Source: Halieaceae bacterium (lineage in GTDB: Bacteria; Pseudomonadota; Gammaproteobacteria; Pseudomonadales; Halieaceae). Taken from it: a DNA stretch of 64,000 bases. The notes below the pieces were generated by a model. The model worked only from the letters and a program-made list of their open reading frames with translations, was not told the origin of the DNA and searched no databases. Of this stretch, positions 7,700 to 27,363 are shown one piece after another (position 1 is the first letter of the stretch; each line of letters begins with the position of its first letter). The stretch is taken from positions 1 to 64,000 of the forward strand of contig CACNSR010000010.1 in the NCBI GenBank assembly GCA_902623175.1, given 5' to 3'. Both the position numbers and the translations under genes were made by a program.

Positions 7700-8485
7700 T
7701 TATGGTGTGAGCAATTGCCGGGCGACCTGCGACCCATCGAGAAACGAAAATCCGTTGTCCAAATCTATAATTTGCCCAGAAACACCTATAGCTGAGGACA
7801 AAATGAAGTTTGCAAAGAACGTACCTACTGACTCGCTAGTCAAAAGCGTCCCGATCGGCGCAGCTTGCTCCAGCCCGTCTAACGTTGCGGGGATTGAATT
7901 CCAGTATGTCATCGCGCGCTCTTTTAAAACTGTGGATCCGATTCTGATCGCATTGATATCGATCCGATCCTTCCCATAAAGTGCCGCGAGATAACGAGTA
8001 AGTGCTTCTTGACCTGCCTTTACCACGTGATAATACAGGTCCTGGTCGAGCAATACCTTTTGTGCAGCCGGAGATGAACTGAGTAGCACCCCCACGTGAT
8101 CGGCAGCCGCTTTTTTAGATTTGACAACTTCTAGTGCTTCTCTGATGCTCCAGAGCTCAACTGCGCAGTGTCGTTCAAAAGACTCAACATCAGGGGGTCG
8201 GTAGCGCTGCAGGAATATAAGTGCATTCAGGTTCACCTGTCGATCTGAGTTGTAAACCTTTTCGAGTAAATTTGAAGTTGCTCCCTCAATCTCGAGGTCC
8301 GCTTCCATCAGCGAAAGATTGGCTTGGCCTTCGACAGACTCCTCTAAGTCATTGTCGATATGTCGGGTAACCAGCATTACCTTTTGACGGAGAGAGATAT
8401 GGCGCGCGCAAGCGATCGCAATGGGGGACCGGCCACCAAAAACGATCGCAACTGGCGCGCCTGATGGCTCTGGGGAATTATCCAT
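7700..8485 (-). CDS. SDR family oxidoreductase
   Basis: VAIVFGGRSPIAIACARHISLRQKVMLVTRH; YYHVVKAGQEALTRYLA; VSGQIIDLDNGFSFLD C-terminus. Confidence 0.65.
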   Translation of the reverse strand: MDNSPEPSGAPVAIVFGGRSPIAIACARHISLRQKVMLVTRHIDNDLEESVEGQANLSLMEADLEIEGATSNLLEKVYNSDRQVNLNALIFLQRYRPPDVESFERHCAVELWSIREALEVVKSKKAAADHVGVLLSSSPAAQKVLLDQDLYYHVVKAGQEALTRYLAALYGKDRIDINAIRIGSTVLKERAMTYWNSIPATLDGLEQAAPIGTLLTSESVGTFFANFILSSAIGVSGQIIDLDNGFSFLDGSQVARQLLTP

Positions 8486-9758
8486 TAAAAACGTCCTTGG
8501 AATATGAAGGGAAGGGCATTATTACTGAGCCCTGAAAATGCAGACGAATGAGGTTGTCGACGATCTTGGGACCATGTTGCCAGGCAAGAATGATCACTAG
8601 AGCACCTGGATTCTCTGTCAGTATTCTTGGTGAGGCCACCTCACAACCTGTGCCTGGCGCGTAGAGGCCGTGCCTTGTGTCGTTGTCATCAATAATAAAA
8701 TCTAAAGATGATTCGATGCTGAGCGCATAACACAGGGTTGTGGTGCTGTGAGATGCACCGTATCCAATTACCCGATTACCCTTAGAGCGTGCCTCCTCAA
8801 TCGAGGATCGCACCGATTGGCCTGTCTTTGCCAGATGCTCTTGCACTCTTAACCACTGAGCATCCCTCGGAGTGTCGAGCCATATTTCACGTTTCAGCAT
8901 TGTTTCGAAGATAATCGACGTCGAATGGTCGCGAGAGCTCTTTTGCATTTCAAGATAGAGCGAGCCACCTTTCTGCGGGGTTTCTCGACAATGAGTAATC
9001 GTCAGTCCCGCTTTTTCTGCCAGTGCCTGAAGATCTTGACATGAGTAATAACTGAGATGCTCATGATAAACGTAATCGAACATTGACACCGCGAGCTGCG
9101 CCGGATGGTAACCAGTTAACACTGTTGTCACTGTGTTGTCGTCTATAAGCGAGGCTATATCACAAAGTATTTCATGGGGATTAGGCAAATTTGCAAAAAC
9201 ATAGTTCAAAGAAATAACTCGTGGGGTTTGGGTAAGCAGCCCCGAGTGGAGCACGTTCGGTAGGGTGAAATAGTCGTTTATCACTGGTATACCCCGACTT
9301 TTGGAAATAGCCGCGGGTGTTGGTGCTGGCTCAACACCTAAAAGGCTGCATCCGATGTCGCCAAAGTAACTAAGCCAGGAGCCGTCGTTTGCCCCAATGT
9401 CAAGTATCAAGTCGTCAGAACAGATTTGGTGTCGGGCAAGGAGGTCAGAAATGATTTCTGAAAAAATCTCCGCTAGCCCGGGGCTTTTTCCGGAATTAAA
9501 CAAGTAATGTTTGTAGCTATCCTCGGGATCTGTCGAGTAAGGAATGAAGCTATGTCCACAAGATTGGCACCTATCGACCTGTAAAGGATAAATCTTTAAT
9601 GCCTTGGCCTCGCTTGAATCATCACAAAATCTGTCGCCCAATGGTGTATGAGGGAGCGATAAGACTGTTCTCCGGTTGGTAGAGTCACAGATCGGGCAAG
9701 GACGATAAGTAAGTGCTGAAGCATCAATACTCATAAGCATCGCCCCGATGTTCGACAC
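8478..9758 (-). CDS. Class I SAM-dependent C-methyltransferase-like protein with N-terminal zinc motif
   Basis: CPICDS...RCQSCGHSF; LILDIGANDGSWLSYFGDIGCSLLGVEPA; YHEHLSYYS; C-terminal domain typical of sugar C-methyltransferases. Confidence 0.8.
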   Translation of the reverse strand: MSNIGAMLMSIDASALTYRPCPICDSTNRRTVLSLPHTPLGDRFCDDSSEAKALKIYPLQVDRCQSCGHSFIPYSTDPEDSYKHYLFNSGKSPGLAEIFSEIISDLLARHQICSDDLILDIGANDGSWLSYFGDIGCSLLGVEPAPTPAAISKSRGIPVINDYFTLPNVLHSGLLTQTPRVISLNYVFANLPNPHEILCDIASLIDDNTVTTVLTGYHPAQLAVSMFDYVYHEHLSYYSCQDLQALAEKAGLTITHCRETPQKGGSLYLEMQKSSRDHSTSIIFETMLKREIWLDTPRDAQWLRVQEHLAKTGQSVRSSIEEARSKGNRVIGYGASHSTTTLCYALSIESSLDFIIDDNDTRHGLYAPGTGCEVASPRILTENPGALVIILAWQHGPKIVDNLIRLHFQGSVIMPFPSYSKDVFNG

Positions 9759-10881
9759 AAAAGTTTGTTAGAGACGTTAGCTGATGCCCGGCCGCTTTGG
9801 GGAACATCGTCCTCAGCCTATCGTAAAGTTCTGGGGCACGACCCTCGCTTACCGCCACCAAAATGCAAGTCGGTTTGGATCGCTCGACGTCGCGAAGCGC
9901 TTTTACCGGGGTTTGTGATAACCCCAAAGTTCGACCATGTTTGCCCGGATCGTCATCTAAAATCGCCTCGATATGCGACGCAGCTTCGCCCAAAACGTCA
10001 ACAAATAGCCCAGCTACGTGATTGGCGCCAAACAACAGTACCGTCGATTGCCTGCTCAAATTGCAGAGCCTTCTCTTGATGAACTGAATCTGACAAGGCA
10101 GTCCGTTTAAAAATCTCTCTGCGGATCTGTCAATCGGCAGAGTGGTATGCCTCGCCTGCCTTGATGAGGAGCGTTTTACAAATGTTAAGCAGACTTGCTC
10201 ACCCTCACTTTCCGTTACCTGACTACTGAGTATCTCGAATCCGCTATTGTGAAGCGCGGCGTGGAGCGTCGTCTCAGTAAAGTACGCGCAATGCTCTTCC
10301 CACAACTGAGTCAAATCGCCTCGATTCAAAAGTTGCCCGCATTCGGGAACCTCGATTAGACAGGTACCCTGTTCGCCAGCGATGGACCATAAGCCTCCTA
10401 AAAAAGAGTCTAGATTGCGCGCATGTTCTAGAAGATGCCTTACTATGAGAATGCTTCCCGTAGCGATCGTAGCTCCAACTCTGCGCTCGCTGACTAATTT
10501 TTGTGCCTCTAAAGGGTGGGCGCCAGGCATTAGGACTTGATTGGCTGCGTCCCAGTCATGACATTCACTGACTAAGTTAACGAGAGACCAATCTTTATCG
10601 GTGAGACCGATGACTTGAGGCATAAGTGGATGACTCTCGGACTCATCGCAGGCCTCCTCAATCATGTTTGCGGCAAGCGCAAGGTGCGCCTCAGGCTCTT
10701 TATGCTGAGCATCACAGACTGCCTCCAATAGCCCGATATCACTTTCGGGCAAAAGTAAAAGACAGCCGGAGTAGGGGTTAATTTTGAACTGAAAATTAAA
10801 ACAAGAGGGTCGTCCTTGGCCCTTGTCAATAAGTTGTGATGATGGTGATAGCTGAAGTTGCATTCTTGTGCCGACAATCAA
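9724..10881 (-). CDS. C-methyltransferase-like protein (divergent)
   Basis: SILIVRHLLEHARNLDSFLGGLWSIAGEQGTCLIEVPECGQLL...EEHCAYFTETTLHAAL; start may be 10881 or 10863. Confidence 0.6.
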   Translation of the reverse strand: MIVGTRMQLQLSPSSQLIDKGQGRPSCFNFQFKINPYSGCLLLLPESDIGLLEAVCDAQHKEPEAHLALAANMIEEACDESESHPLMPQVIGLTDKDWSLVNLVSECHDWDAANQVLMPGAHPLEAQKLVSERRVGATIATGSILIVRHLLEHARNLDSFLGGLWSIAGEQGTCLIEVPECGQLLNRGDLTQLWEEHCAYFTETTLHAALHNSGFEILSSQVTESEGEQVCLTFVKRSSSRQARHTTLPIDRSAERFLNGLPCQIQFIKRRLCNLSRQSTVLLFGANHVAGLFVDVLGEAASHIEAILDDDPGKHGRTLGLSQTPVKALRDVERSKPTCILVAVSEGRAPELYDRLRTMFPKAAGHQLTSLTNFCVEHRGDAYEY

Positions 10882-10921
10882 TCTTTGGGTAAGCGTGAAA
10901 TATCAGGAGCTAAGTTCTCCT

Positions 10922-11410
10922 TCATATATAAACGGTTGAATTTTTATTGAAGGGGCCTGAAGTGGTTTCAAGGAAAACGGAGTCACAGTGCATAACCACG
11001 TCATGGACCACATTTTTTGCGACAAAACAAAATAAATCTCCTGAATTTTCCCGACTTTCGTCAGATAATCTCAGTGACCGCACGTTCTCTCCACTTTGAT
11101 CGTATATGCGCACTGATAGGCTTCCTTGTATGATCTGTATGTATTCATCTTTTTCAGAATGCGCGTGCTTTCGAACTTCGTGCTCAACCGCGTGATAGAC
11201 CAGCATCACTTGTAAAGGCGAGGAATCATTTTTGTGGAAACAAATTCTCGCCTGAGTCAGGTTGAGGCGATCTGCCTCAGCTTTCAGTAGTCGTACAAAA
11301 AAAAGTTTGTTGACGGAGAAATCTGAATAGTCGCCTATAAACCGGAGCGTCCCAGTGGTAGGGTCTTCACAAGAGACATCATGACTTTTGTAAACAGGTA
11401 AATCGGTCAT
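10922..11410 (-). CDS. WbuC-like cupin-fold protein
   Basis: ARICFHKNDSSPLQVMLVYHAVEHEVRKHAHSEKDEYIQIIQGSLSVRIYD...FLETTSGPF. Confidence 0.6.
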   Translation of the reverse strand: MTDLPVYKSHDVSCEDPTTGTLRFIGDYSDFSVNKLFFVRLLKAEADRLNLTQARICFHKNDSSPLQVMLVYHAVEHEVRKHAHSEKDEYIQIIQGSLSVRIYDQSGENVRSLRLSDESRENSGDLFCFVAKNVVHDVVMHCDSVFLETTSGPFNKNSTVYI

Positions 11411-11414
11411 ATTT

Positions 11415-12173
11415 TTAGTGAATGGGATTGGTTGGCACTAGAAGTGTGAACTCAATACTACACCGGCACCTGCTAGCGGTATTTACAGCTCCTCCATGTA
11501 ATAGTCTGTCATGAAATATGACGCCGTAACCGGGTGGCGGAGACAACAAAGTAAGAGAAGAGGGATCCAGTTGCGTCTTCAGCATGGGTTTTGTGATACC
11601 CCCAGATACAGTGCCCTCCCACTCAAGATCTTCCCGTAAATGCGAGCCCGGTTGAACTAAAAGCCCATTTAGGCCTGGCGCCGTCTCGACAGCAATCCAA
11701 ACCTTAACTCTCCCTAGCCCGCTCATATCGTGACCAAAGTTGTCATTGAGCTCCCAAAACCAAGCATCGCGATGCATCGGTCCGATATCGTCCTTAGCCC
11801 CTGGTCGAGTTAATCGCCAATAGTAGTTGCCCCTCCCCAGCAGCTCCTCGTCACTGGTTTTTGATGATCCAAACGAGTTGCACAAAGCCATAATACCGGC
11901 GGTGCTTTCTATCCAGGCCGTGTCTGCGTCGCTCAGGATACGGTTGGCTTTGATCCACGTGGATCCATGTGATTCTTTGGGACCAAGCTTGTGATAAACC
12001 GAAAGCGGGTCGTCTTCTTTTTTTAAGAGTCGGTATGCTTCTGAGTCACACTTGGCTAGTACGTCAATGATTTGCGCATTGATGCGATTACGCAAGGAAA
12101 TTACTTCGCTATCGCTAAAGATCCGACATACAGAATATCCAGATTCCAAATGTGGCCAAATCATCGCACGCAA
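11415..12173 (-). CDS. Phytanoyl-CoA dioxygenase-like Fe(II)/2OG oxygenase
   Basis: MHRDAWFWELNDNFG...VKVWIAVETAPGLNGLLVQPGSHLRE...VIFHDRLLHGGAVNTASRCRCSIEF. Confidence 0.75.
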   Translation of the reverse strand: MRAMIWPHLESGYSVCRIFSDSEVISLRNRINAQIIDVLAKCDSEAYRLLKKEDDPLSVYHKLGPKESHGSTWIKANRILSDADTAWIESTAGIMALCNSFGSSKTSDEELLGRGNYYWRLTRPGAKDDIGPMHRDAWFWELNDNFGHDMSGLGRVKVWIAVETAPGLNGLLVQPGSHLREDLEWEGTVSGGITKPMLKTQLDPSSLTLLSPPPGYGVIFHDRLLHGGAVNTASRCRCSIEFTLLVPTNPIH

Positions 12174-12589: not shown

Positions 12590-12638
12590 AACTCTTCCGC
12601 CAAACCTCTGTAAACAGCAATCAGAGAATATTTATTTG

Positions 12639-14099
12639 CTACATTGTTCGTTCTAAATTTTCTAGTGCACTAAAAAACTCACTGGCTTGTATCGGCACAT
12701 TCCCCACTCGGGAAACTTGCATTGAAGCTGCTGCACTACCTAAAAGAGCTGCGACCCAATGAGAAGCGCCTGCCGCCAAAGCCATACCTGTGGCAGCAAG
12801 CATAGAATCACCCGCTCCAGCGACGTCTACGGGTTGGGGATTTAAAGCGGCCAAATTGCTGGTGGCTATGATGCCTTTCGGTGACTTGCTATGGACAATT
12901 ATACCGTCCGCACCGAGCTTCAAGATAATGTTGTCGCACTGTGTGGAAGTGCGCAGTTTTTCGGCAATTCTCGCCAAACCACTGTCTTTGTCTCGGAGAC
13001 CGATCCGGGCTTCGCGCTCTGTCGCGCAGACAAGATCAATGCCTTTGAAACGCGTAATGTCGCCGACTTGCGAAGATGACTGACTATCTACAGCTACGAC
13101 AGTGCCCTCGCTCGAAGCTATGGAGATGCACTTTTCCACTAGTTCCTGTGGTAAACATCCGTAGTTAAAATCCGACAGGATGAGTAGATCGCAGTCTGAA
13201 ATCGCGTCTTCGAAGGTCGCAAGCAGCTTCTTTTGAAGATCAAGGGAGATAGAGTTTTGATGAAGCTTACTTACCCTCAGAAGTGTGGTGTCGTCGGCGC
13301 GAAACCTTTGTTTGAGAGTGGTTGGTCTGCCGGCATCAACTACGTGCTGTAATTCGACACCTTGTCGCTTCAACATGCTCGCGGCAAATTCTCCTGTTTC
13401 GTCGGTGCCTAGAACCGTCAGAAGAACTGTTGATGCTCCCAGACTAGCCGCATGCGCTGCGACGATGCCCGAGCCACCAAGAAATTGCTTGCGGTCAACG
13501 GGGGTAACCACAAGCGAAGGGTCCTCCTGAGACATGCCAAGCGCCTCGCAAGTTATGTACTCATCAACAATTACATCGCCGAAGACACAAACTTTGAGTT
13601 GCTGGAATTTTTGAAGCGCTTGCTCAATTTGACCACTGTTTATCTTGTGTCGCCGCAGATACGGCTTCGAAAGGTCTGCAAGCAGTAAGTTGGGCGATGA
13701 AGTATCTGGCCGCATCATATTGATTACCGAGAGTGGTAATTCAGATGAGCCGAAAATTAGTTGGCCGCCGTATTCTGCAAGGACGGCTGCTTCGACATTG
13801 TCCTGGTGCTCAAATTCTCGCCCTTTTACAACAATGTCTGGCCGTAATTCACGAATGAAGGCTTCGAGTGGCGTCTCTATCAGTATTACTTGATCTGCCC
13901 AGCCGCTTGCTCGCAATGCTTCGACCCGAAAGGACTCGTCGATGAACACTCCGCCACCAGCCAATCTGTCGCTATAAACACCAACTATTAACCTTTTGCC
14001 CAGCTCTCTGGCGAGGGCGAATAATCGGATATGTCCGGCATGTATGACATTGAAGTTGCCAGAAATGAGCACTACCGGATGTGATATCTCGGTATTCAT
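12639..14099 (-). CDS. Bifunctional nucleotidyltransferase (N-terminal) / PfkB-type sugar kinase (C-terminal), HldE-like with reversed domain order
   Basis: SGNFNVIHAGHIRLF cytidylyltransferase motif near N-terminus; VCVFGDVIVDEY...GGSGIVAAHAASLGA...NPQPVDVAGAGDSMLAA PfkB motifs in C-terminal part. Confidence 0.8.
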   Translation of the reverse strand: MNTEISHPVVLISGNFNVIHAGHIRLFALARELGKRLIVGVYSDRLAGGGVFIDESFRVEALRASGWADQVILIETPLEAFIRELRPDIVVKGREFEHQDNVEAAVLAEYGGQLIFGSSELPLSVINMMRPDTSSPNLLLADLSKPYLRRHKINSGQIEQALQKFQQLKVCVFGDVIVDEYITCEALGMSQEDPSLVVTPVDRKQFLGGSGIVAAHAASLGASTVLLTVLGTDETGEFAASMLKRQGVELQHVVDAGRPTTLKQRFRADDTTLLRVSKLHQNSISLDLQKKLLATFEDAISDCDLLILSDFNYGCLPQELVEKCISIASSEGTVVAVDSQSSSQVGDITRFKGIDLVCATEREARIGLRDKDSGLARIAEKLRTSTQCDNIILKLGADGIIVHSKSPKGIIATSNLAALNPQPVDVAGAGDSMLAATGMALAAGASHWVAALLGSAAASMQVSRVGNVPIQASEFFSALENLERTM

Positions 14100-15148
14100 C
14101 AGGTTATGTTGCTACCGTTTGGCAATAGTATAGGTCTGAGGAGTTTGCCTTCGTAGAATAGATCAATAGCCACGTTGATCTCACCAAGGGAGAATTTATC
14201 CGTCATCAACGCTTCCAAAGGGACCTTCGCCTCTGTGAAAAGTTGTGCGAGCTTGGGAATATCGATATCCGGTGCTATCCCACCGCCCCAGCTACCGTTA
14301 ATTTTTTTTCCGGTGATTAACTGATGCGGATCGATAGAGATATGCTGCCCTGCCGGGGGGTGAGAGGCGAACAGTAACGCACCAGATCTAGCCTTGATGA
14401 GCGAAAAACCTAACTCGATAGTTCTTGTTGATCCCGCGGCTTCAATACAAAAATCTGCGCCATTTGGGAGATGGTCGGTTACTGCTGCAAAAACACTCTC
14501 TTCAGATTTATAGTGAATCGCAGTCGCGCCTAACGACGCCGCCAGCTCAACTTTTTGAGAGTCAGTATCAATGGCTAGAATTCGTTTCACGCCGGTGGCA
14601 AGCAGAGCCAGAACGGCTGACATACCGATACCGCCAAGGCCTAGCACGATCACGGAATCGTGCGCCTTTGGCTCTAACTCATTGAGTACCATTCCTGAGC
14701 CGGTCGCAAGCGCACAACCAAATAGCACTGCAATATCCATATCCAGTTGGTTAGGTTTTGGTACAACGCGATTTTCAGAGACAATAGAGTAGTCACTAAA
14801 GGTGGTGACAGGCCCCGCATTAATTGTCCTACCGCCATGGGAATATTGAGGCGTAGCGGACTCGATGCCAGAAGATTTGATCCAAGTCAGAATGACATCG
14901 TCGCCCGGTGCAACTTTTGACACGCCCGCCCCTACATCAACCACCGTGCCCGATGCTTCATGGCCGAGTAGATGAGGAAGCCATTTGTCAGGCCCCCGGT
15001 GACCGCCAATCTCCATCAGCTGGCTACGGCAGATTGCGCTGTAAGCAACTTTTACCAGTACCTGGCCGCGTTGTAGTGGAGGGATATCGAGCTCCATCAG
15101 CTGAAGCGGTTGTCCACACTGCTCCAAAACAGCCGCGGTCATTTTCAT
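14099..15148 (-). CDS. Zinc-dependent alcohol dehydrogenase (MDR)
   Basis: AICRSQLMEIGGHRGPDKWLPHLLGHEASGTVVDVGAGV; VIVLGLGGIGMSAVLALLATG. Confidence 0.8.
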   Translation of the reverse strand: MKMTAAVLEQCGQPLQLMELDIPPLQRGQVLVKVAYSAICRSQLMEIGGHRGPDKWLPHLLGHEASGTVVDVGAGVSKVAPGDDVILTWIKSSGIESATPQYSHGGRTINAGPVTTFSDYSIVSENRVVPKPNQLDMDIAVLFGCALATGSGMVLNELEPKAHDSVIVLGLGGIGMSAVLALLATGVKRILAIDTDSQKVELAASLGATAIHYKSEESVFAAVTDHLPNGADFCIEAAGSTRTIELGFSLIKARSGALLFASHPPAGQHISIDPHQLITGKKINGSWGGGIAPDIDIPKLAQLFTEAKVPLEALMTDKFSLGEINVAIDLFYEGKLLRPILLPNGSNIT

Positions 15149-15191: not shown

Positions 15192-17237
15192 TCAGAAAGG
15201 GCCAGTAAATGTGGCGTCTGGCTGGTCATGCGCGCTTCTATGCTCTATCGCTTCGGTATTGAGAGTGGGCTTGTTCAGGGCGCCCAGCGCCGCGTTAGCG
15301 ATAGTGTGGGCATTGGGGTAGTAGCCTTTGGCAAACGCATGCGAAGTTGGCGCCGGATAGTCCGGGAGACTCACCCTGACGGGTGCAGCCAGTAACGTGT
15401 CAAAGAGTTTCTCGTTAACCCTCGCCGAGAGCTCACTGGCCACTCCCGCCACGGGAGTTGCATGATCTGCGATCAGCACAAGCCGTGTTTTCTCAACAGA
15501 AGCAAGAAGAGTCGTGTAGTCGATTGGTCGCACACTGCGCAAATCAACTACCTCTGCATTGATGCCGTGCTCCGCCAGCAATTCGGCCGCGCGCAGGCAT
15601 TCGAGTGTCATATAAGAAATACCAATCAGGGTGACGTCTGTGCCCGCGCGCCTGACCATCGCTTTATCTAGCGGTACTATGTAACCCGCCTCCGGCACCC
15701 GATCTTTTACGCCGTAAAGCCAGCGGTGCTCGAGGATTACTACCGGATTCTCATCCCTCACAGCCGCAATCAACATGCCCTTGGCATCGTAAGCGGTTGC
15801 CGGCATCACCACTCTCAGCCCGGGCACATGCGCAAACCAAGCGTGCAACGCCTGACTATGTTGTGGCCCCTGGCCCCAGCCCCGACCGATAATCATCCGG
15901 ATTACCATTGGGGCACTCATATGCCCGCCAAACATGTAATGCCACTTGGCGGCCTGATTCACAATCTGGTCGATGGATACCAGCGCAAAGTCCACTCGCT
16001 GGTGTGTCAGAATAGGCCGTTGCCCCGTCACAGCACTACCCAAGGCTACTCCAGTTAACGCGTTTTCAGAGATCGGTACGTCAAATACTTTCCCTTCGCC
16101 AAATCGCTCCGGCAACCCCAGGGTGGAGCCAAAGATTCCCTTAGGGTCGGGCACACCTAGTCCCATCAAATACACGCCATCAATGTGCTCCAGCGCATAT
16201 GCTTGAGCTTCGTTCAATGCTTCGGCATAGGTAACAAAGCGGTCTGAGGTGGTGTCTGGGGTGTGCAAGTTCGCGGATCTATCACTTGCATAAACATATT
16301 GGCCCAAATCATCAGTATTTGGAAACGGGCTGCTTTTAGCAAAGTCAAAAGCGGCATCAATTTCTGCAGTAATAGTCTTTTCAAGCGCGTTCCTGATCTC
16401 GGGGGCAATCGCTTCCTCAAGCTGCTTCAGGGCATCGCGGGTCCGCCAGGCGTCGATTTCAGCCTGTGGCCGGTAACCGAGGTTATCATCTTCGTCGGGG
16501 CCGCAGTGCTCTACCCAACGGTATACTGGCACTTCTAAAAAGCTGGGTTGCGATGTTTTACGGGTCAGCGAAATTAATTCCGCCGCTTGGTAGAAAACGG
16601 ATAATGCGTCGTCGCCCATTACCGATTCGGCGGTTAATCCGTGACTTTTGGCCAGCTCACATAACCCGCGGCCCGCAGGCTGCCTAATGGATAAAGGGGA
16701 ATACACCGAATACAGATTATTTTCACATACAAATAAAATGGGGAGCTGATGCACCGCTGCAAAGTTCATGCTCTCGTGTGCCGCGCCGGTCTCCATGGCG
16801 CCATCACCCAAAAAGACAACCACAATTTTGTCTAAATTTCGTTGCTTTATCGTGAGAGCGGCACCTACCGCGATGGGTATTGAACTGCCCACGATGGGAG
16901 TCGCACCAATAAATCCGGCCCCGATATCGGTAAGGTGCATAGATCCACCAAAGCCCTGTGAGCATCCCGTGGCTTTGCCGTACAACTCTGCGATCATTTT
17001 TTTAAGGTCACCCCCTTTGGCTAGATAGTGGGCGTGGCTACGGTGACCTGAAAAAACGTGATCGTGACGAGTCAGTGATTCACACACGGCCGCCGCCGCT
17101 ACCTCTTGGCCAATGCTCAAATGCACGGGGCAGCGCATTTCTTGGTTTTTATATTCCCGCGCAATAGCTTGCTCAATCAGGCGTATTCTGCGCATGGAGC
17201 GGTAAAGTGCTTGCTGCAAATGAGCGCCATCACTCAT
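15192..17237 (-). CDS. Fused TPP-dependent dehydrogenase E1 alpha-beta protein
   Basis: E1 alpha TPP motif GDGAMETGAAHESMNFAAVHQLPILFVCENN, then E1 beta (FVTYAEALNEAQAYAL...VFDVPISENALTGVALGSAVTG...GRGWGQGPQHSQ...DLRSVRPID) in one ORF; start set to MSDGAHLQ at 17237. Confidence 0.85.
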   Translation of the reverse strand: MSDGAHLQQALYRSMRRIRLIEQAIAREYKNQEMRCPVHLSIGQEVAAAAVCESLTRHDHVFSGHRSHAHYLAKGGDLKKMIAELYGKATGCSQGFGGSMHLTDIGAGFIGATPIVGSSIPIAVGAALTIKQRNLDKIVVVFLGDGAMETGAAHESMNFAAVHQLPILFVCENNLYSVYSPLSIRQPAGRGLCELAKSHGLTAESVMGDDALSVFYQAAELISLTRKTSQPSFLEVPVYRWVEHCGPDEDDNLGYRPQAEIDAWRTRDALKQLEEAIAPEIRNALEKTITAEIDAAFDFAKSSPFPNTDDLGQYVYASDRSANLHTPDTTSDRFVTYAEALNEAQAYALEHIDGVYLMGLGVPDPKGIFGSTLGLPERFGEGKVFDVPISENALTGVALGSAVTGQRPILTHQRVDFALVSIDQIVNQAAKWHYMFGGHMSAPMVIRMIIGRGWGQGPQHSQALHAWFAHVPGLRVVMPATAYDAKGMLIAAVRDENPVVILEHRWLYGVKDRVPEAGYIVPLDKAMVRRAGTDVTLIGISYMTLECLRAAELLAEHGINAEVVDLRSVRPIDYTTLLASVEKTRLVLIADHATPVAGVASELSARVNEKLFDTLLAAPVRVSLPDYPAPTSHAFAKGYYPNAHTIANAALGALNKPTLNTEAIEHRSAHDQPDATFTGPF

Positions 17238-17929
17238 GGCATAAACCAATAAAAATCGCCTGCGTAGCCAACTTCGGTAAAGTACGCCCTCCAATCATCA
17301 ATGCTTTTGATGGTTTTGGCGGTTAAGTTCCACGCTAGCATGGCCTCTTGCTCCTCGGGATTACGAAAGGCGTCCACAGTGATAAATGTGTGTTTTCGCG
17401 AGACCCTGGTCACCTCGGAAAATGCTTGGGCGAGGGCAGCACCCTCGAGGTTATGGAGCGTGTTAATGGAAATCACAAGGTCAAAAGCATCGTCTTCGTA
17501 GGGAAGATCGGTGGCATTGCCCTCGGTCAGGTAGGGTTTCATTTCGGGCATGGCCTGCTCGATGGCATAGGCGCTAATATCCAATCCGCGAACGTAGATA
17601 TCGGGTATCAAGCGCAATATATCGAAGAGCATAAACCCCTTTGCGCACCCCACGTCTAAAACGCGAGACCCCGCTTTAAGATCGTAGAACTCCTGCAGGG
17701 TGGGTATTACCGGCTCCCAAAAACGTGGATGGTAGTGAAAGCCACCGTAACCGTGTCGTCGATCGCCATCAAAAAAAGCTTTGCCAAATTGGCGGGCAAT
17801 TTCACGATCGCTCTCTGTCTTTTGATCGCTCCTCGCGGCGATGTCACGTTTGCTTTTTGGATAATGCTCGAGCAAATCGACCTCTCGGCCGAGCTGAAAC
17901 CTCTCTGTTACTTGGTGATTGTTATCCAT
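17234..17929 (-). CDS. Class I SAM-dependent methyltransferase
   Basis: SRVLDVGCAKGFMLFDILRLIPDIYVRGLDIS; LPYEDDAFDLVISINTLHNL. Confidence 0.8.
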   Translation of the reverse strand: MDNNHQVTERFQLGREVDLLEHYPKSKRDIAARSDQKTESDREIARQFGKAFFDGDRRHGYGGFHYHPRFWEPVIPTLQEFYDLKAGSRVLDVGCAKGFMLFDILRLIPDIYVRGLDISAYAIEQAMPEMKPYLTEGNATDLPYEDDAFDLVISINTLHNLEGAALAQAFSEVTRVSRKHTFITVDAFRNPEEQEAMLAWNLTAKTIKSIDDWRAYFTEVGYAGDFYWFMP

Positions 17930-18869
17930 TGGCCAAGCCGAGAGAGGCCATCCACTTCACCGTATGATTCTGCTCAGAGTCGACCAGCTCTCCCTTGGCG
18001 AATGCATTACTGAGCTCATCGACAGCGTGACCAATTGAAAACAACGGCTTGAAGCCCGTATTCAGAAGCTTGTCTGAGTTTTGTCTGTAGGATCTTGGAT
18101 CATTCGAAGGGGTCGTGGTGATCGGTGCGCCCGTTTTGCTGGCAATCATTTTGGCCAACTGCTTGATGCTGATGTTTTCGAAACCCGCATTGTAGTTTCC
18201 CGAGGGGAGGTCGGGATGAGTCAAGAAATGCTCGTAAACCCTGGCCATATCCTGAATATGAATGTTGGGCCGCACTTGATCGCCGCCGAATACCGTAATC
18301 TTTTGATTCGCCAGCGCTTGAAAACTGAGCATATTGACCGATACATCTAACCGCATACGTGGAGACAATCCGCAGACTGTGGCGGGCCTGATGTTATGTA
18401 TAGCCATCTCTCCCGCGTAGCTCAACAATACGCGCTCCGCCACCATTTTCGTTTTGTTGTAGGTTGATATGGGGAGCAGCTCGAGATCTTCGGTCACCTG
18501 TTCTTCTCGTTTTATGCCGTACACACTACCCGAGCTGGCATAGATAAACTGCGAGACTCCCGCACGTACTGCCAGGGTGGCCAGTTGTTGAGAAGCCAGC
18601 ACATTCACCTCCCAAGAGAGCATTGGATTCAGATCAACGCTTGGATCGTTTGCAATATTGGCGAGGTGGATAATTGCGTCTACCCCGATGAAATCTGTTG
18701 CGCTTATATCTCTGATGTCGCCCTTTACTGAGGTTAGCCGAGGGTGCGTTGGAAGATGGTTACCAAACCACTGTGTATCAATCACTCGCACCTGATGATC
18801 TTGAGCCAACAGATGCGGTACCAGCACACTACCCACATAACCGCACCCCCCTGTGATCAGTAACTGCAT
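17922..18869 (-). CDS. NAD-dependent epimerase/dehydratase
   Basis: MQLLITGGCGYVGSVLVPHLL; YASSGSVYG; YNKTK catalytic motif. Confidence 0.85.
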   Translation of the reverse strand: MQLLITGGCGYVGSVLVPHLLAQDHQVRVIDTQWFGNHLPTHPRLTSVKGDIRDISATDFIGVDAIIHLANIANDPSVDLNPMLSWEVNVLASQQLATLAVRAGVSQFIYASSGSVYGIKREEQVTEDLELLPISTYNKTKMVAERVLLSYAGEMAIHNIRPATVCGLSPRMRLDVSVNMLSFQALANQKITVFGGDQVRPNIHIQDMARVYEHFLTHPDLPSGNYNAGFENISIKQLAKMIASKTGAPITTTPSNDPRSYRQNSDKLLNTGFKPLFSIGHAVDELSNAFAKGELVDSEQNHTVKWMASLGLANG

Positions 18870-18872: not shown

Positions 18873-19862
18873 TCATTTCCTGTGTTGGTAGGCCAGCGGT
18901 TCGGTTATCAAAAAGGGCAAACGTGCTTCGGCCCACTGTTTCACACCGTCAATACCGCTGTCGAGGTTGGTTTGTGGTGTCCAGCCCAATTCGCGCTGTA
19001 TCTTGCTGCTATCGAGTAGGTAAGAGTCGTCCTTGCCCAGCCGTTCCTCCGATTGCTGCGCCACTTCATCGAGTGAGAGGTCAAAGGTCGCGGCAACGCG
19101 TTCTACTAACTCTCTGATAGCGATCGGCTCGGTGTTTGAGAGGTGGTACGCCTCTCCCGGCACGCCATTGAGCGCTATTTGCTCCGTACCGCTGCAAACA
19201 TCGTCTATGTGAATAAAGCATCGCTGCGAATGACCACCACCGTGCAGATCGAGTTTTGTGCCAGTCAGCGCGGCCATTAACGCTCTTGGAATAATGCGGT
19301 ATAGCTGCTGGCCGGCGCCGTAAACATTGGCAGCGCGAGTAAATATGGCGGGGAAGCCATAGGCCTTAAAAAAACTCAGCAAGTGCAAGTCGCAGGCGGC
19401 TCTTGATACCGCATAGGGGGAGCTAGGTGCAAACTGGAAGTGCTCGCTCGTCCAGCCCTCGGTGTGGCCATACACCTCGGGAGTAGAAATATGCAGATAT
19501 CGCTTTATAAACGGCATTCGCCTGAGCTGATCATGCAGCGCGACCTGTGCAACCACATTGGTTTGATACCAATCCTCTGGAGACAGCCAGCTTTCACCCA
19601 CCATGCCCTGAGCCGCAAAATTGACGACGCATTCTGGTCGAGTGTCTGACACGAGCGCGCAGATTTGAGCCAGGTCCCGATTGAGGTCCAACTGCTGAAA
19701 TTGAAATCGCGACGCGTCGCAACTAGACCAACGATACGGTAGATAGGCCTCATGAGGTTCTGCTGAGCGGCTGATACCGATCACTTCATTGCCACGATCC
19801 AGCAGATGCCTGACAAAACTGGCACCGCTGAAGGAATTGCTGCCAACGATTAGATATTTCAT
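18873..19862 (-). CDS. GDP-mannose 4,6-dehydratase-like NAD-dependent epimerase/dehydratase
   Basis: YLIVGSNSFSGASFVRHLLDRGNEVIGISRS; ISTPEVYGHTEGW; SPYAVSRAACDLH. Confidence 0.8.
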   Translation of the reverse strand: MKYLIVGSNSFSGASFVRHLLDRGNEVIGISRSAEPHEAYLPYRWSSCDASRFQFQQLDLNRDLAQICALVSDTRPECVVNFAAQGMVGESWLSPEDWYQTNVVAQVALHDQLRRMPFIKRYLHISTPEVYGHTEGWTSEHFQFAPSSPYAVSRAACDLHLLSFFKAYGFPAIFTRAANVYGAGQQLYRIIPRALMAALTGTKLDLHGGGHSQRCFIHIDDVCSGTEQIALNGVPGEAYHLSNTEPIAIRELVERVAATFDLSLDEVAQQSEERLGKDDSYLLDSSKIQRELGWTPQTNLDSGIDGVKQWAEARLPFLITEPLAYQHRK

Positions 19863-20722
19863 GTGGGCTGCTCAATACGGACGCTGTGTCTGGCCAGCCG
19901 CTCCAGCTCGCGATGTATTTCATGTTGGTTAAATCGGTGTTGCCAATCATCGCTAAGTTGAGGCGTGAATGGGTGCGGCGGGTCGGATTGTGCAGCAAGC
20001 AGAGAGGGAATGGTCCCGATGTCTCGATGAATGCCCGCGTGATGCCAACAGGCAATGCGACCCATGAACGCGGGAATTAGTTGTGTGCTGATGTCGTTAA
20101 CGGTTGGGTTTTGATTCAGCCAATTGATGAGCTCGGGCTCGATTGCATACACAGCAGCATTAGCACGATTCCCGGGTGGTTCAGTTTGCTTCTCATGAAA
20201 ACCGATTAACGTGTTGTTCGAATCGGTTTCAACGATGCCGCACTGTGTCGGCGCATCGGTGTCAAAAGTCATCATGGTCATTAATATGCCACGGCCAGTC
20301 GCACTGCGGTGATAATCAACGAAAGCCTCAAGATCACAGTCTGACCAGTTGTCTGCATGAATTACCAAGAGCGTTTTGCCTGACGCGCGGCCCTGATTCG
20401 CAATGGCTCTTAGAGACCCCGCGGTTCCAAGAAGATCATGTTCCTCAAAGGTTTGCACTCGGGCCGCATAACAAGGACGGCGAACGTATTCACCCACTTC
20501 GCGCTTAAGGTAATGAAGGTTAACGATGGTGTTTAAAGTGCCCATTTGCTGGATGCTCGCAAGCCAGTAATCGAGGAGCGGTCTGCCATGAACCGGCATC
20601 AAACACTTTGGCCATTTATCAGAAAGCGGTTTGAGCCGGGTGCCCAGCCCGGCCGCAAGGAGGATCACGACTGCTGAGAGCTCTACCGGGTTATTGATCT
20701 GCGTGTTCCGCAATGAAGTCAA
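19859..20722 (-). CDS. HddC/ManC-like sugar-phosphate nucleotidyltransferase
   Basis: VILLAAGLGTRLKPLSDKWPKCLMPVHGRPLLDYWL. Confidence 0.8.
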   Translation of the reverse strand: MTSLRNTQINNPVELSAVVILLAAGLGTRLKPLSDKWPKCLMPVHGRPLLDYWLASIQQMGTLNTIVNLHYLKREVGEYVRRPCYAARVQTFEEHDLLGTAGSLRAIANQGRASGKTLLVIHADNWSDCDLEAFVDYHRSATGRGILMTMMTFDTDAPTQCGIVETDSNNTLIGFHEKQTEPPGNRANAAVYAIEPELINWLNQNPTVNDISTQLIPAFMGRIACWHHAGIHRDIGTIPSLLAAQSDPPHPFTPQLSDDWQHRFNQHEIHRELERLARHSVRIEQPT

Positions 20723-21239
20723 CCATCGACAGTAGCCAAATATGGTGCGTCATCTCTACCGTGTTGTAGTGTGATGAGTCCACCCATAAATTGATGTCAC
20801 CCATCTTCCGAAGCGGATTGGTGGCATCGAAGCCCGTGAGCGTCATAATTTTCATGCGCTGCCGTCGCGCTTCTTTTGCTGCGTTAAGTAAATTGAGCGA
20901 CTGACCACTGCTACTAATGAGCACAGCAAGATCTGCCGACTCGCCATAGGCCTTGAGCGCCTCCTCCAGCCAGCGCTCATAGCCGTAGTCGTTAGCGAAA
21001 CAAGTTATTAGGTCAGCTTCGTTAAAGTTAATCGCTCTGATCTTCGCCGCTTTCAACAGGTCTACTGTTACATGGCTAGCCATGGCAGCACTGCCGCCAT
21101 TACCTGCCAGAATAATGCGGCCACCCGCCCTACTCGTATCCCCAAATAATTTGGCTCCCTCAGCCAATATTTGCGTCTCGCTACTGCGTATGTGAGTCGC
21201 AATGCGTCCAAAATATTGATCAAAATAGGAATTGGTCAT
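20691..21239 (-). CDS. SIS-domain sugar isomerase, GmhA-like
   Basis: GGRIILAGNGGSAAMASHVTVDLLK; LISSSGQSLNLLNAAKEAR. Confidence 0.8.
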   Translation of the reverse strand: MTNSYFDQYFGRIATHIRSSETQILAEGAKLFGDTSRAGGRIILAGNGGSAAMASHVTVDLLKAAKIRAINFNEADLITCFANDYGYERWLEEALKAYGESADLAVLISSSGQSLNLLNAAKEARRQRMKIMTLTGFDATNPLRKMGDINLWVDSSHYNTVEMTHHIWLLSMVDFIAEHADQ

Positions 21240-21457: not shown

Positions 21458-22321
21458 TTATTGCAACAACTGCAATACCGTCCCCGGCAATTCATTTGCC
21501 TGCGCAAGCATTGCCGTTCCCGCCTGCTGGATGATTTGCGTTCTGGCGAGTTCCGAGGTCGCCTCAGCGTAATCAGTATCCATAATGCGGCTGCGGGTCA
21601 CCTCTGCATTAGTCACAACGTTAGTGAGGTTATCAACCGCATGAATCAGTCGATTTTGCGTGGCGCCAAATTTTGCCCTCTGAGTCGATACCGCTGTCAT
21701 GGCCAGGTCCAATTTGCCAATGGCGCCGCTGGCCACCGTGATCGCGGAGGCAATAGTCGCCGCAGACAGTGTCTTGGAGGCCAATCCAGAGAGGCTTCCA
21801 GTAGAGTCGGTGAAGTTTCCAAAAGTTACAGCGACGGTTTGAGCAGCGTTCATACCCACCTGATAAGACACAGATGATAGGCCTGCGGTAGAAGCCCCTG
21901 CATTGCCGTTCAAAATTGGTCGCCCGTTCCACTCAGTATTAGTAGCAATTCTGTCAACTTCTGCGCGAAGCGCAGTAAACTCTGCATTGAGATAAGAGCG
22001 ATCAGAGGAGTCAGTGGTACCAGTGCCAGACTGCAGCGCAAGCTCCCGCATTCTTTGCAGCATCGCTGTAATTTCGTCGAGTGCGCCCTCTGCAGTTTGC
22101 ACCATGCTAACCGCGTCATGAGCATTGCGAATGGCTTGATCAAGGCCCCGTATCTGAGACGTCATCCTTGTAGATATCGCCAATCCCGCCGCGTTATCAG
22201 ATGCCGAATTGATCTTTTTGCCTGTAGAAAGTTGCTCCATTGCGTTGCCAAGCGCCCGCTCATTTTTTGCAAGCGCGGCCTGCGCAATAGAGGCTGCGAT
22301 GTTGGTATTTACAACAGCCAT
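21458..22321 (-). CDS. fliC: Flagellin
   Basis: N-terminal MAVVNTNIAASIAQAALAKNERALGNAMEQLSTGKKINSASDNAAGLAISTRM and C-terminal RSRIMDTDYAEATSELARTQIIQQAGTAMLAQANELPGTVLQLLQ; 287 aa. Confidence 0.97.
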   Translation of the reverse strand: MAVVNTNIAASIAQAALAKNERALGNAMEQLSTGKKINSASDNAAGLAISTRMTSQIRGLDQAIRNAHDAVSMVQTAEGALDEITAMLQRMRELALQSGTGTTDSSDRSYLNAEFTALRAEVDRIATNTEWNGRPILNGNAGASTAGLSSVSYQVGMNAAQTVAVTFGNFTDSTGSLSGLASKTLSAATIASAITVASGAIGKLDLAMTAVSTQRAKFGATQNRLIHAVDNLTNVVTNAEVTRSRIMDTDYAEATSELARTQIIQQAGTAMLAQANELPGTVLQLLQ

Positions 22322-22727: not shown

Positions 22728-23426
22728 TTAAGCATTGCGGCGATCAGACAGGTAAATCCGGGCTCGCTCAAGGTCGCTTGGCTCATCGATATCAACCGAT
22801 GCCTCCCGAGACATAAGGTATCCCAAAGTTTCCGGTGAGACGAAAGATCTCGCAGCAATTAGCCAATCAATTTCAGCAATGTAAATAGCCCCGTTTAGTG
22901 AATAGGCAGCTGGCAGATCCTGCCGCCGCATCGATACGCTTGAGTCGATTTTCAGGAAAGCGTCGAGACGAGAATCTGCCGCCATTGAATAGACGAGGAA
23001 AGGATGATCCCTCGCCTCGGATACCGACACTGCAGTAGCGGCACCCTTAGCGATCAACAGCTCTAGGCAGTTATCTATGTCGGATGCCTCTCTCAGAGGT
23101 GAGGTCGGCTGCAGTACAACCACGAGGTCAAACCCCGAAGTTCTGTCGATGACATCTAGCACGACATCAATTGTCTTGGCGTCATCGGTCGCAAGTTCGG
23201 CTGGACGCAAAAAAGGCACGTTGCAACCTGCGGCCTTTGCCATCGAACAAATACGCTCATTATCCGAAGAAAGAATAACGTGATCGATATATCGAGACGA
23301 ACTCGCCGCTTCAATGGTCCAGTTAATCAGTGGTTTGCCCATCAAGGACACAGTATTTTTGTTTGGAATGCCTTTAGATCCACCCCTGGCGGGGATCACT
23401 GCCAGCACTTTCTTGTTTTCTATCAC
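22728..23426 (-). CDS. legF: Acylneuraminate (legionaminate-type) cytidylyltransferase
   Basis: VLAVIPARGGSKGIPNKNTVSLMGKPLINWTIEAA; VLQPTSPLR. Confidence 0.85.
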   Translation of the reverse strand: MIENKKVLAVIPARGGSKGIPNKNTVSLMGKPLINWTIEAASSSRYIDHVILSSDNERICSMAKAAGCNVPFLRPAELATDDAKTIDVVLDVIDRTSGFDLVVVLQPTSPLREASDIDNCLELLIAKGAATAVSVSEARDHPFLVYSMAADSRLDAFLKIDSSVSMRRQDLPAAYSLNGAIYIAEIDWLIAARSFVSPETLGYLMSREASVDIDEPSDLERARIYLSDRRNA

Positions 23427-23458
23427 CGCGCGTCGCTTTCTGATTAAAGGCGGACAAT

Positions 23459-24520
23459 TCAGCCGCTGGAAATCTTTAGCGGCGTCGAACGAGCGGTTTT
23501 CAAATCATCGGGCCGCCCTACATCCAGCCAGGGTTCATACATGGGATATGCAACCACCCGCGCGCCTTGATCAGAAAGCATCTCAAATACCGTGGGCATG
23601 TCGCAGTAACCGCCTTTAGGCAGCATTTGCAGCACTGCAGGAGATAGTGCGTAAACCCCGGCGTTAACATGGCTTCTCAAAACCGGTTTCTCAGAGAATC
23701 CCTTAATTTCCAAGCCTTCCATCTCCACAACACCAAATGGATTAGTCCACTCGTGCAGCTTCACCGCCATAACCGCCTGTGCATCGTGCTGATTCAAAAA
23801 GCTCAAAAGCTCTGTGTAATCAATGTCCGTGAGCACATCACCATTGGATACAACAAAATCTCTCTGTGGCGCTTGCTCAATCAAACTGAGTGCCCCAGCC
23901 GTGCCCAATGGCTCATGCTCTTCAATGTATTCAACCTTGATGCCAAATTGCCGGCCATCACCAAAAAAGTCTCTGATCATTTCACCGTAATAGTTGATGC
24001 AGAAGATGAAATGCCTGAAACCCTGGCCGCGGGCGCGCTCCACAATGTGCTGTAGCATTGGCTTACCGGCGATTTCCAACATCGGTTTGGGGCAGGTTTC
24101 GGTAAAGGGCCGCAAGCGCTTACCCAAGCCCCCGACCATGAGCACCATGACATGGTCATGATCTTCGGCGGGGCCCAACTCATCCCAGAGGTATAAGCCA
24201 ACCACGCGCCCCTCATCGTCTACACTGGGAACCTGCGCCACTTTGTTGGCACGCATCAGCGCACGGACTGTGGTCCAGTCCGTGTTCTCAGGGACCACCA
24301 GGGGGTTGCGGTTAATGACCTCGGCCACACAGTCATCCATCGACAACCCCCGGAGCAAGCCCCGTCTAAGGTCCCCGTCTGTAATCAAGCCAATTAAGCC
24401 GCCCTCTTCGTCGACGCAAATGCATAACTTGATCGCAACATCGTTCAAGTTTTGAAACGCCTGTTGAAACGTTGCATGTTGAGAAATTACGGCTTTTCGC
24501 CAGTTCACCGCTTCAATCAC
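23459..24520 (-). CDS. ptmE: CBS-domain sugar-phosphate nucleotidyltransferase, PtmE-like
   Basis: N-terminal CBS-pair (GLITDGDLRRGL) then VLMVGGLGKRLRPFTETCPKPMLEIAGKPMLQHIVE. Confidence 0.8.
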   Translation of the reverse strand: MIEAVNWRKAVISQHATFQQAFQNLNDVAIKLCICVDEEGGLIGLITDGDLRRGLLRGLSMDDCVAEVINRNPLVVPENTDWTTVRALMRANKVAQVPSVDDEGRVVGLYLWDELGPAEDHDHVMVLMVGGLGKRLRPFTETCPKPMLEIAGKPMLQHIVERARGQGFRHFIFCINYYGEMIRDFFGDGRQFGIKVEYIEEHEPLGTAGALSLIEQAPQRDFVVSNGDVLTDIDYTELLSFLNQHDAQAVMAVKLHEWTNPFGVVEMEGLEIKGFSEKPVLRSHVNAGVYALSPAVLQMLPKGGYCDMPTVFEMLSDQGARVVAYPMYEPWLDVGRPDDLKTARSTPLKISSG

Positions 24521-25707
24521 ACTGCTACCCTCCCAACCTCGTCTGAGGTGGTATTGAGGTCATGAAAGCGTTTGTTGCCACACCGCGGCTCCCACGCGTC
24601 AATCACAGCCACCGTGAGCTTGGCCGCACCGCCCTGACCGTAGGGATTTTGGATCCCTTTACCGTTTCGCGAGCGCGTCTCTGGCCGAAGCAGCACACCT
24701 AACGCATTAAGAATCGCGGTCCGGTTAGGTGCGCAATCGATGACGCTCGCGGCTTTAAGACGGCCATCCTGGCGGGCCCCGATATTTACGGTCCCCACTC
24801 CGAAAGCCGGCGCCTCGATGAGTCCTGAGGATGAATTACCCACAACGCCCGCAGACAGCGAAAGCACGGACAAATAAAGCGTCTGTCCCAGAGAGGTATG
24901 TTGACAAGCTCGCGGTGAGTGCTGCCTCACAAATTCCTGAACGAGGTCAAACAAACCGCGACCACCCACATCGGCATTGGGCATAGTGAAGACGAGAGAC
25001 GCGTCCACCTGCTCCAACGCAGCCAGCAACTCTGTCATTTGTGACTGCGCGCTGGTGCCGACGCGTCCCGTCTCTGGGTGGAAGGTAATCAGCAAAGTAG
25101 TATCGCCTAGCGCAAAGCCAAGCCGCTCCTCTACCTCGGTACGCCCCAACAAAGGGGTATTAAGCGCCGTGTCGACGCCAAAGCCGCCCACGTTCCAGAC
25201 CGTTTCGGGCGCCTCACCGAGCTGAATCACGCGCTGCCGATAATCTTCCGCCGCGGTAAAGTGCAAACTCGACATCTTGGTGATGGCATGACGAATTGTG
25301 TCATCCAATGACCCCACCGTAATCTCCCCACCATGCAAATGGGCTATCGGGATGCCAGCAAATGTGGCGCTGGATGCAGCCGCAAAAATCTCGAAGCGGT
25401 CGCCGAGTAGCAACACGAGATCGGGCTTCAACACCGCAAATGCGTCCGCGAACCCGGTCATCGCCAAGCCAACCGATTTGGTGACAGCGACCTCGGTATC
25501 GGCGCCGACCAGCATTTCAACTTTCCAGTCGATATCGAATCCATCGGCTTCGATGTGTCGCCAGGTGTAACCAAACTCGCTCGCGAGATGCATGCCAGTG
25601 GCAATCACCTGTAGCACGCAATGTTGAGAGTCTCGTAGCCCCGCCATCACGCACCGCAGTAAGCCGTAATCCGCGCGAGAACCCGTCACCACGCAGACCT
25701 TTTTCAT
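24517..25707 (-). CDS. legG: UDP/GDP-sugar 2-epimerase (hydrolysing), NeuC/LegG-like
   Basis: VCVVTGSRADYGLLRCVM; LLLGDRFEIFAAASSATFAGIPIAHLHGGE; GNSSSGLIEAPAFG. Confidence 0.88.
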   Translation of the reverse strand: MKKVCVVTGSRADYGLLRCVMAGLRDSQHCVLQVIATGMHLASEFGYTWRHIEADGFDIDWKVEMLVGADTEVAVTKSVGLAMTGFADAFAVLKPDLVLLLGDRFEIFAAASSATFAGIPIAHLHGGEITVGSLDDTIRHAITKMSSLHFTAAEDYRQRVIQLGEAPETVWNVGGFGVDTALNTPLLGRTEVEERLGFALGDTTLLITFHPETGRVGTSAQSQMTELLAALEQVDASLVFTMPNADVGGRGLFDLVQEFVRQHSPRACQHTSLGQTLYLSVLSLSAGVVGNSSSGLIEAPAFGVGTVNIGARQDGRLKAASVIDCAPNRTAILNALGVLLRPETRSRNGKGIQNPYGQGGAAKLTVAVIDAWEPRCGNKRFHDLNTTSDEVGRVAV

Positions 25708-26744: not shown

Positions 26745-27363
26745 CCCGGTGCCCGCTTGAGGGTGAGCAAGTTGTTGACATACCGGATCGCACTACTGTG
26801 CCGGCGGGGATAATCGCTCCCTCATCAATTTCGATATCGTTGTGTAAGACCGCACCCGACCCGATGAAGCACCTTGGGCCAATCTTGACGCCGCCATTTA
26901 CTCGGGCACCCGTGGCGATGTGGGTGTGATCTCCTATCGCTACGTCGTGCTCCAGAAGCGCCATGGAATTCACTATGCAATTTTCTCCGACCCGGCAGGC
27001 CGAATTGACCACTGCACCGTGCATGACCATAGTTCCCGCGCCGATATCGGCTTGGCGAGAACAGTAGGCATTGGGAGAGACAATCACAGGTAGGGAGGCG
27101 CCCACTTTTTTCGCCGCAGCAAAGGCGCGCTCCCTGATCGCTGACGTCTTAATTTGCCCTATAGTGACGAGCACACCAACACCTTTACCCATCAGATCCG
27201 CTAATGCATCGTCAGTTCCCAGTATTGGATAGCCCATCACGTCGCTACCTTCAAAAGCAGGATCCTCAAGCACGCCAATAATTTGGTGACTTCCCTCCGA
27301 CTCGATCACATCGATGGCGGATCGACAATGGCCCCCACCACCCATCAGAATCAAATCACTCAT
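26728..27363 (-). CDS. legH: NeuD/PglD-type sugar O/N-acyltransferase (LegH-like)
   Basis: LILMGGGGHCRSAIDVIES plus hexapeptide-repeat C-terminal half. Confidence 0.8.
   Translation of the reverse strand: MSDLILMGGGGHCRSAIDVIESEGSHQIIGVLEDPAFEGSDVMGYPILGTDDALADLMGKGVGVLVTIGQIKTSAIRERAFAAAKKVGASLPVIVSPNAYCSRQADIGAGTMVMHGAVVNSACRVGENCIVNSMALLEHDVAIGDHTHIATGARVNGGVKIGPRCFIGSGAVLHNDIEIDEGAIIPAGTVVRSGMSTTCSPSSGHRGVAHG

Follow-up and report, generated by a model that had tools for sequence, protein, structure and literature searches.

A clade of tagged, E2-free E1-like TPP enzymes in surface-glycan gene clusters, with a member in an accessory glycan island of a Halieaceae bacterium

In E1 enzymes, a 2-oxo acid is decarboxylated on TPP and the C2 unit is passed to lipoamide. 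The alphaKADH2 group of E1-like carboligases, which comprises AviB1/AviB2 of the avilamycin pathway, Plm8/9 (= Pau11/12) of paulomycin, KbDH-alpha/beta of kibdelomycin and the corresponding proteins of the aldgamycin and kosinostatin pathways, departs from this scheme in that these antibiotic-pathway proteins are described as adding C2 from pyruvate to ketosugars without an E2 (PMC12247030, PMC4802897, PMC4425429). Support for the C2 addition comes from feeding and knock-out experiments for aldgamycin, combinatorial biosynthesis with Plm8/9 and in vitro ketone coupling by KbDH (PMC12247030, PMC4802897, PMC4425429). According to a 2025 review, sugar-branching TPP enzymes of the E1 type have been described for antibiotic clusters and YerE-like enzymes for LPS; YerE itself (yersiniose, LPS) is placed in the decarboxylase (DC) superfamily, and split transketolases have been proposed to act on the sugars of miharamycin and amipurimycin (PMC12247030).

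The E1-like protein considered here is encoded in a 64,000-nucleotide stretch from a Halieaceae bacterium (hereafter, the window). Like the alphaKADH2 systems, it combines E1-type alpha and beta parts and a location in a sugar cluster that lacks cognate E2 and E3 genes with the proposed addition of C2 to the carbonyl of a sugar; this likeness concerns gene layout and published descriptions. The alphaKADH2 enzymes have been described as alpha/beta subunit pairs from secondary-metabolite clusters, whereas the window E1 and those of its relatives that end in a conserved FTGPF tag belong to surface or flagellin glycan islands, are accompanied by SIS isomerases and nucleotidyltransferase-PfkB proteins, are single-chain in some cases and occur in many phyla. 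The preliminary description of the locus had chosen YerE as the analogue. Both enzymes are linked to TPP-dependent C2 branching of a surface-polysaccharide sugar, a role that is known for YerE and proposed for the window E1, but YerE is a DC superfamily member whereas the window E1 consists of E1_dh, Transket_pyr and Transketolase_C domains, which makes the alphaKADH2 group the better analogue.

The single-chain E1-like protein

The E1 gene lies where the preliminary description had placed it, on the minus strand, which that description did not give; its 682 codons include the stop at 15192, so that the length of 682 residues reported there holds for the codon count, whereas the protein has 681 residues. 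The ATG at 17237 overlaps the methyltransferase stop by 4 bases, as is typical of coupled operons, and is therefore preferred over an upstream TTG that would yield 700 residues. The presence of complete E1 alpha and beta parts in one chain, also claimed previously, is borne out by three nearly complete Pfam profiles, E1_dh (residues 14-307, 1.8e-51), Transket_pyr (residues 335-509, 1.4e-31) and Transketolase_C (residues 525-646, 8.6e-31). These domain matches, together with 72% identity over the full length to an Akkermansiaceae MAG protein, are far beyond chance.

Within its own genome, the window E1 shares 34% (alpha) and 36% (beta) identity with the PDH E1. It misses the NCBIfam cut-offs for PDH E1 alpha (260 and 152 bits vs 394 and 411) and for PDH E1 beta (301 vs 454 and 295 vs 321 bits), as well as those for transketolase (83 vs 488 bits) and dxs (79 vs 466 bits). 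The DC superfamily layout is absent from the protein, in which TPP_enzyme_C gives only a weak overlap and TPP_enzyme_N no match.

Alignment shows that the TPP-binding and catalytic residues of canonical E1 enzymes are present in the window E1. The tagged clade and canonical E1s have 98 positions in common, including the GDG...ENN TPP motif, E391 and H460 of the beta part and H244 of the alpha part; by homology to E1 enzymes, these three residues are the activating glutamate, the beta-His and the histidine of the alpha-His loop, respectively. Another 61 positions are specific to the tagged E1s and include the GRGWGQGPQH and HQR motifs and the tail. The tag itself, LDxPDxxFTGPF (core DxPDxxFTGPF), forms the extreme C-terminus of nearly all close relatives and is absent from the canonical E1s compared.

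Structure prediction, a check that the preliminary description had proposed, yielded an E1-like AlphaFold monomer model (pLDDT 87.9, pTM 0.89; two plasmid-record rows were left out of the alignment), in which the FTGPF tail is the poorly modelled part. The best PDB matches of the model are PDH/BCKDH E1 beta chains, followed by transketolases, which match over the whole chain with TMq 0.67 and about 14-19% identity. Thus, the window E1 resembles the alpha2beta2 E1s of the PDH and branched-chain type (PDB 1ni4, 1w85, 1umd) in fold, domain order and catalytic residues, and differs from them in the lack of E2 and E3, the scores below the family cut-offs, the separate clade, the tag and the altered motifs in the active-site region. 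With transketolases it has in common a related fold and, as proposed here, C2 transfer to sugars, but the low identity and the missed cut-off set it apart.

Operon, substrate clues and the accessory glycan island

The sugar enzymes reported around the E1 gene in the preliminary description were recovered as profile matches of the operon genes (Table 1). Successive spacings from the SIS isomerase (21239) to the kinase (12639) are -32, -4, 3, -8, -4, 43 and -1 bp; given this range, from -32 to 43 bp, the genes look like one translationally coupled operon.

Table 1. Coordinates of the E1 gene, its parts and associated features (window positions unless the viral contig is named)
Feature	Position	Strand	Remarks
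Single-chain E1 alpha-beta TPP enzyme	15192..17237	-	681 aa
E1 protein parts	alpha 1 to about 320; beta about 332-650; tag 670-681 (residues)		conserved C-terminal tag HDQPDATFTGPF
Second island gene group	7700..12173	-	PhyH dioxygenase, WbuC cupin, two C-methyltransferase-like proteins, SDR
Nucleotidyltransferase (RfaE2-like) + PfkB (HldE-like) kinase	12639..14099	-	recurrent E1 neighbour
Zn alcohol dehydrogenase (MDR family)	14099..15148	-	43 bp after E1; recurrent E1 neighbour
SAM methyltransferase	17234..17929	-	overlaps E1 start by 4 bp; recurrent E1 neighbour
SDR315, NAD-dependent epimerase/reductase-type SDR	17922..18869	-	recurrent E1 neighbour
SDR329, 4,6-dehydratase-like SDR	18873..19862	-	Pro-Glu where RmlB has Asp-Glu; recurrent E1 neighbour
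NTP_transferase-family sugar-1-phosphate nucleotidyltransferase	19859..20722	-
SIS-domain (GmhA-like) sugar-phosphate isomerase	20691..21239	-	first operon gene; metal-site residues changed
Flagellin	21458..22321	-	adjoins operon
Legionaminic-type nonulosonate genes	22728..29569	-	cytidylyltransferase, CBS-NTase, NeuC, NeuB, NeuD, LegC, LegB
Viral contig L129: SIS-E1 alpha ORF and tagged E1 beta	5419-6936 and 6869-8026	+

Several features of the neighbouring proteins bear on the nature of the substrate. At the metal site, the SIS proteins of the cassette have Asp and Glu in all 20 of 20 relatives, as against Glu (or Gln) and Gln in solved phosphoheptose isomerases; among the solved chains with Glu at the second position, one is presumably an engineered variant. 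Judging from these residues, the cassette isomerase may act on a ketose phosphate other than sedoheptulose 7-phosphate. At the Asp-Glu site of RmlB-type dehydratases, the SDR329 proteins carry Pro-Glu, or Ala-Glu in three of them, and the RmlB Asp is absent from all 33 of 33 aligned rows, so that a 4-keto-6-deoxy intermediate does not appear assured. Thus, the precursor may be other than an ordinary heptose and the intermediate other than an ordinary 4-keto-6-deoxy sugar, and the classic heptose pathway is weakened as an explanation by both substitutions. The nucleotidyltransferase-PfkB protein has its domains in the inverse order compared to HldE.

The E1 and the isomerase are physically joined in a viral contig of 126.8 kb (IMGVR_UViG_3300037316_000027 of IMG/VR, here L129), detected in a single-protein scan of viral sequences, in which one ORF encodes both a SIS isomerase and E1 alpha. 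This fusion is direct evidence that the E1 and a sugar isomerase act in one pathway there. The contig also encodes homologues of the nucleotidyltransferase-PfkB protein and SDR315, with an endolysin gene nearby, and both of its E1 halves are matched by PHROG 34187, a family of unknown function. An apparent fusion of SDR329 to E1 alpha in another locus (L034) was rejected: the match to E1 alpha begins no earlier than profile position 68, so that the E1 N-terminus is lacking, which likely reflects a deletion or an assembly fault.

The window is a flagellar region that encodes FlaG, flagellin, FliD, FlgL, FlgK, FlgI, hook, FlgA, FlhA, FlhB, FliM and FliK (FliD, FlgL and FlgK were identified by reading the sequence). 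A congener (G029) lacks the E1 block: FlaG directly adjoins flagellin there, without the roughly 20 kb that separate the two in the window (950-21239), and FlaG, two flagellins, the nonulosonate genes and FliD-FlgL-FlgK form one contiguous stretch. No tagged E1 was found in any of the 36 congeners searched, and a class-wide sample of 370 genomes contains only 4 others with any strong E1 match, none of which reaches the tag. Given this absence from congeners and rarity in the class, the E1 block is an accessory glycan island. The product of the block most likely decorates flagellin, with the protein encoded next to the operon as the likely glycan acceptor.

The core operon is followed, after 465 bp, by the second gene group of the island, which is not conserved with the E1 elsewhere. 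At the island edge, a TPR protein with a TIGR04372-family glycosyltransferase domain (950-2491, minus strand) is a candidate flagellin glycosyltransferase. Two PhyH-type dioxygenases and an SDR (2982-5730, plus strand) are encoded opposite to the sugar operon by genes that are more AT-rich than the flagellar genes.

E2 and E3 genes and the tagged E1 clade

In agreement with the preliminary description, the window contains no E2 or E3: the E2 (PF00198) matches of the genome are confined to three other contigs, and tblastn with the genome's own E2 and E3 proteins gave a best E=0.3 in the window. The genome-wide search for a cognate E2 that had been suggested there shows that every E2 found in this genome, a MAG estimated to be 85% complete from whose assembly genes could be absent, has a more natural partner than the window E1. 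On contig C26 there is a normal PDH operon that includes E1 alpha and E1 beta genes of its own; on C9, an E2 and an E3 lie immediately upstream of the succinyl-CoA synthetase genes and presumably form the 2-oxoglutarate dehydrogenase set; and the E2 of C11, which looks like an orphan, was rejected as a shared partner of the window E1 because it is adjoined by the C-terminus of another E1 beta at the contig edge.

A scan of 84,980 species genomes yielded 80 homologue loci, whose record titles include Pseudomonadota, Acidimicrobiales, Chloroflexi, Nitrospirae, Verrucomicrobia, Chlamydiae and others. In a tree built without the tail columns, the tagged proteins (about 70 loci) form one clade (SH-aLRT 98) that excludes the genome's own PDH E1. 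Within the stretch available for each locus, which differs in length between loci, E2 or E3 genes accompany none of the 72 E1s with such tails (69 tagged and 3 ending in GPF/GPY) but 14 of the 27 untagged ones; thus, the tag is associated with the lack of E2.

The preliminary description treated the single chain as the key feature. In most homologue loci, however, alpha and beta are adjacent separate genes, the single-chain state being combined with the tag in 12 loci, and it requires several changes on the tree (in a Magnetococcales group, in the window E1 with its Akkermansiaceae relative, and probably in L011), so that, on the tree topology, fusion arose more than once. Furthermore, an untagged single-chain E1 of 723 aa (L095, 1288-3456, plus strand) is directly followed by an E2. 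Because tagged relatives are mostly split and this fused protein sits beside an E2, fusion was rejected as a diagnostic character; what matters more is the family itself, tagged and E2-free, together with its gene cassette. The L095 protein is the fused E1 of a conventional complex and comes from the same taxonomic order as the window genome.

Among the 36 loci with long flanks, homologues of SDR315 and of SDR329 each occur near the E1 in 22, the PfkB kinase in 21, its nucleotidyltransferase domain in 20, the methyltransferase in 19, the SIS isomerase in 17 and the ADH in 13. Cultured bacteria that carry the cassette include Tistlia consotensis (L051) and Azospirillum oryzae (L090). At the thresholds used, six of these loci have no core neighbours (L027, L032, L085, L091, L092 and L106), and the last three are GPF/GPY-type outliers. 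On the Streptomyces plasmids L092 (9992-12038) and L106 (about 11946-14027), E1-like pairs end in F.GPY; the L092 proteins fall near but outside the tagged clade, in an unsure position, and these pairs possibly represent another E2-free use of the E1 family. Neither plasmid has recognised core sugar neighbours, and near the L092 pair are condensation-domain, acyl carrier protein and regulator genes. Some of the glycan clusters (L010-L089) contain several C-C bond-forming TPP enzymes, with an acetolactate-synthase-like enzyme in 13 loci and split transketolase halves in 10-12.

Predicted chemistry and alternative readings

C2 transfer to a sugar carbonyl is proposed because the window E1 has what carboligation needs and lacks what a dehydrogenase complex needs. 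By analogy with AviB1/B2 and KbDH, there is a reasonable probability that it is an E2-independent TPP carboligase that adds a C2 unit, probably derived from pyruvate, to a sugar intermediate. The ancestor of such an enzyme would be a 2-oxoacid dehydrogenase E1. TPP would be bound between the alpha and beta halves, in an active site of the usual E1 kind, where a 2-oxo acid, most likely pyruvate, would be decarboxylated to the hydroxyethyl-TPP carbanion; this carbanion would then attack the carbonyl of the sugar intermediate in place of E2-bound lipoamide. Most likely, the SIS isomerase, the kinase/nucleotidyltransferase and the SDRs of the operon provide the acceptor in the form of a nucleotide-activated ketosugar, and the product predicted to enter the flagellin glycan is a sugar that either carries an acetyl (then hydroxyethyl) branch or is longer by two carbons. 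TPP-dependent C-C bond formation on a sugar, as envisaged in the preliminary description, stands as the best reading of the E2-free clade, the sugar clusters, the SIS fusion and the precedents; acetyl transfer to an NDP-ketosugar is the more specific part that we infer.

The C2 unit might instead be added before activation. The E1 would then place it on an aldose phosphate, either as a ketol from hydroxypyruvate or a ketose or as an acetyl from pyruvate, to give an unusual ketose phosphate that is isomerised by the SIS protein, phosphorylated by the PfkB kinase and activated by the nucleotidyltransferase; LmbR/N/P/O make the lincomycin octose by a comparable extension, isomerisation, phosphorylation and activation. 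The viral SIS-E1 alpha ORF could mean that the E1 works at the sugar-phosphate stage, the SIS and PfkB proteins are among the commonest neighbours, and both the invariant change at the SIS metal site and the whole-chain fit to transketolase folds are compatible with such a route. However, by sequence the protein is nearest to the pyruvate-type E1 families, and its transketolase and DXS scores fall far short of the cut-offs; a pyruvate-derived 1-deoxyketose could not yield an aldose by isomerisation; the pentose phosphate pathway supplies ordinary ketose phosphates anyway; and the published E1-type carboligases use ketosugars. We therefore regard extension before activation as unlikely, and the NDP-ketosugar stage is preferred over the sugar-phosphate stage for the C2 transfer.

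The retained E1 catalytic residues, and the E2 and E3 genes on other contigs, would also suit an ordinary second E1 that shares these partners and lies in a sugar cluster by chance. We give this very little credence: the PDH E1 cut-offs are missed by far, the E2s of the genome have E1s of their own, no tagged member has E2 or E3 nearby, and the operon coupling and the SIS fusion in a relative tie the E1 to sugar enzymes. It is thus very unlikely that the window E1 serves in a conventional 2-oxoacid dehydrogenase complex. Only slightly more credence is due to an E1-like decarboxylase or acyl supplier, whose product, a small acyloin or aldehyde such as acetoin or else an acyl group, would be used to decorate the sugar, with no C-C bond being made on the sugar itself. 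A Zn-ADH is encoded next door, and the nearer untagged relatives include E1s with an adjacent E2 that we take to be of the acetoin type, but the tagged clade has no conserved E2, CoA-ligase or N-acyltransferase partner, and the fusion and the neighbours point to sugar-phosphate and nucleotide-sugar steps.

The tagged E1 group as a whole probably builds C-C bonds on unusual surface sugars by TPP chemistry. Searches of the literature on this cassette in flagellar or O-antigen clusters returned nothing relevant, and the literature found does not describe, for LPS or flagellar glycans, a sugar-building logic that combines an E1 with a modified SIS protein. As a tentative and on balance doubtful extension, the tagged E1 might be the core of an undescribed pathway that crosses phyla and is also present on a viral contig, in which the SIS protein, the nucleotidyltransferase-PfkB protein, the E1 and the SDRs would supply surface glycans with nucleotide sugars that have a higher carbon number or a C2 branch, the E1 and the modified SIS protein acting in successive steps.

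In the present analysis, surface-glycan clusters from many phyla, and also a viral contig, were found to encode members of one large clade that derives from E1 and is recognised by a diagnostic tag and a recurring gene cassette. Should the proposed chemistry be correct, branched or chain-extended sugars are predicted in many unstudied glycans, and annotations of these proteins as E1 subunits or transketolase C-terminal domain proteins would need correcting. Furthermore, the C-terminal tag would then offer a search handle for such glycans and the family a source of new C-C bond-forming biocatalysts.
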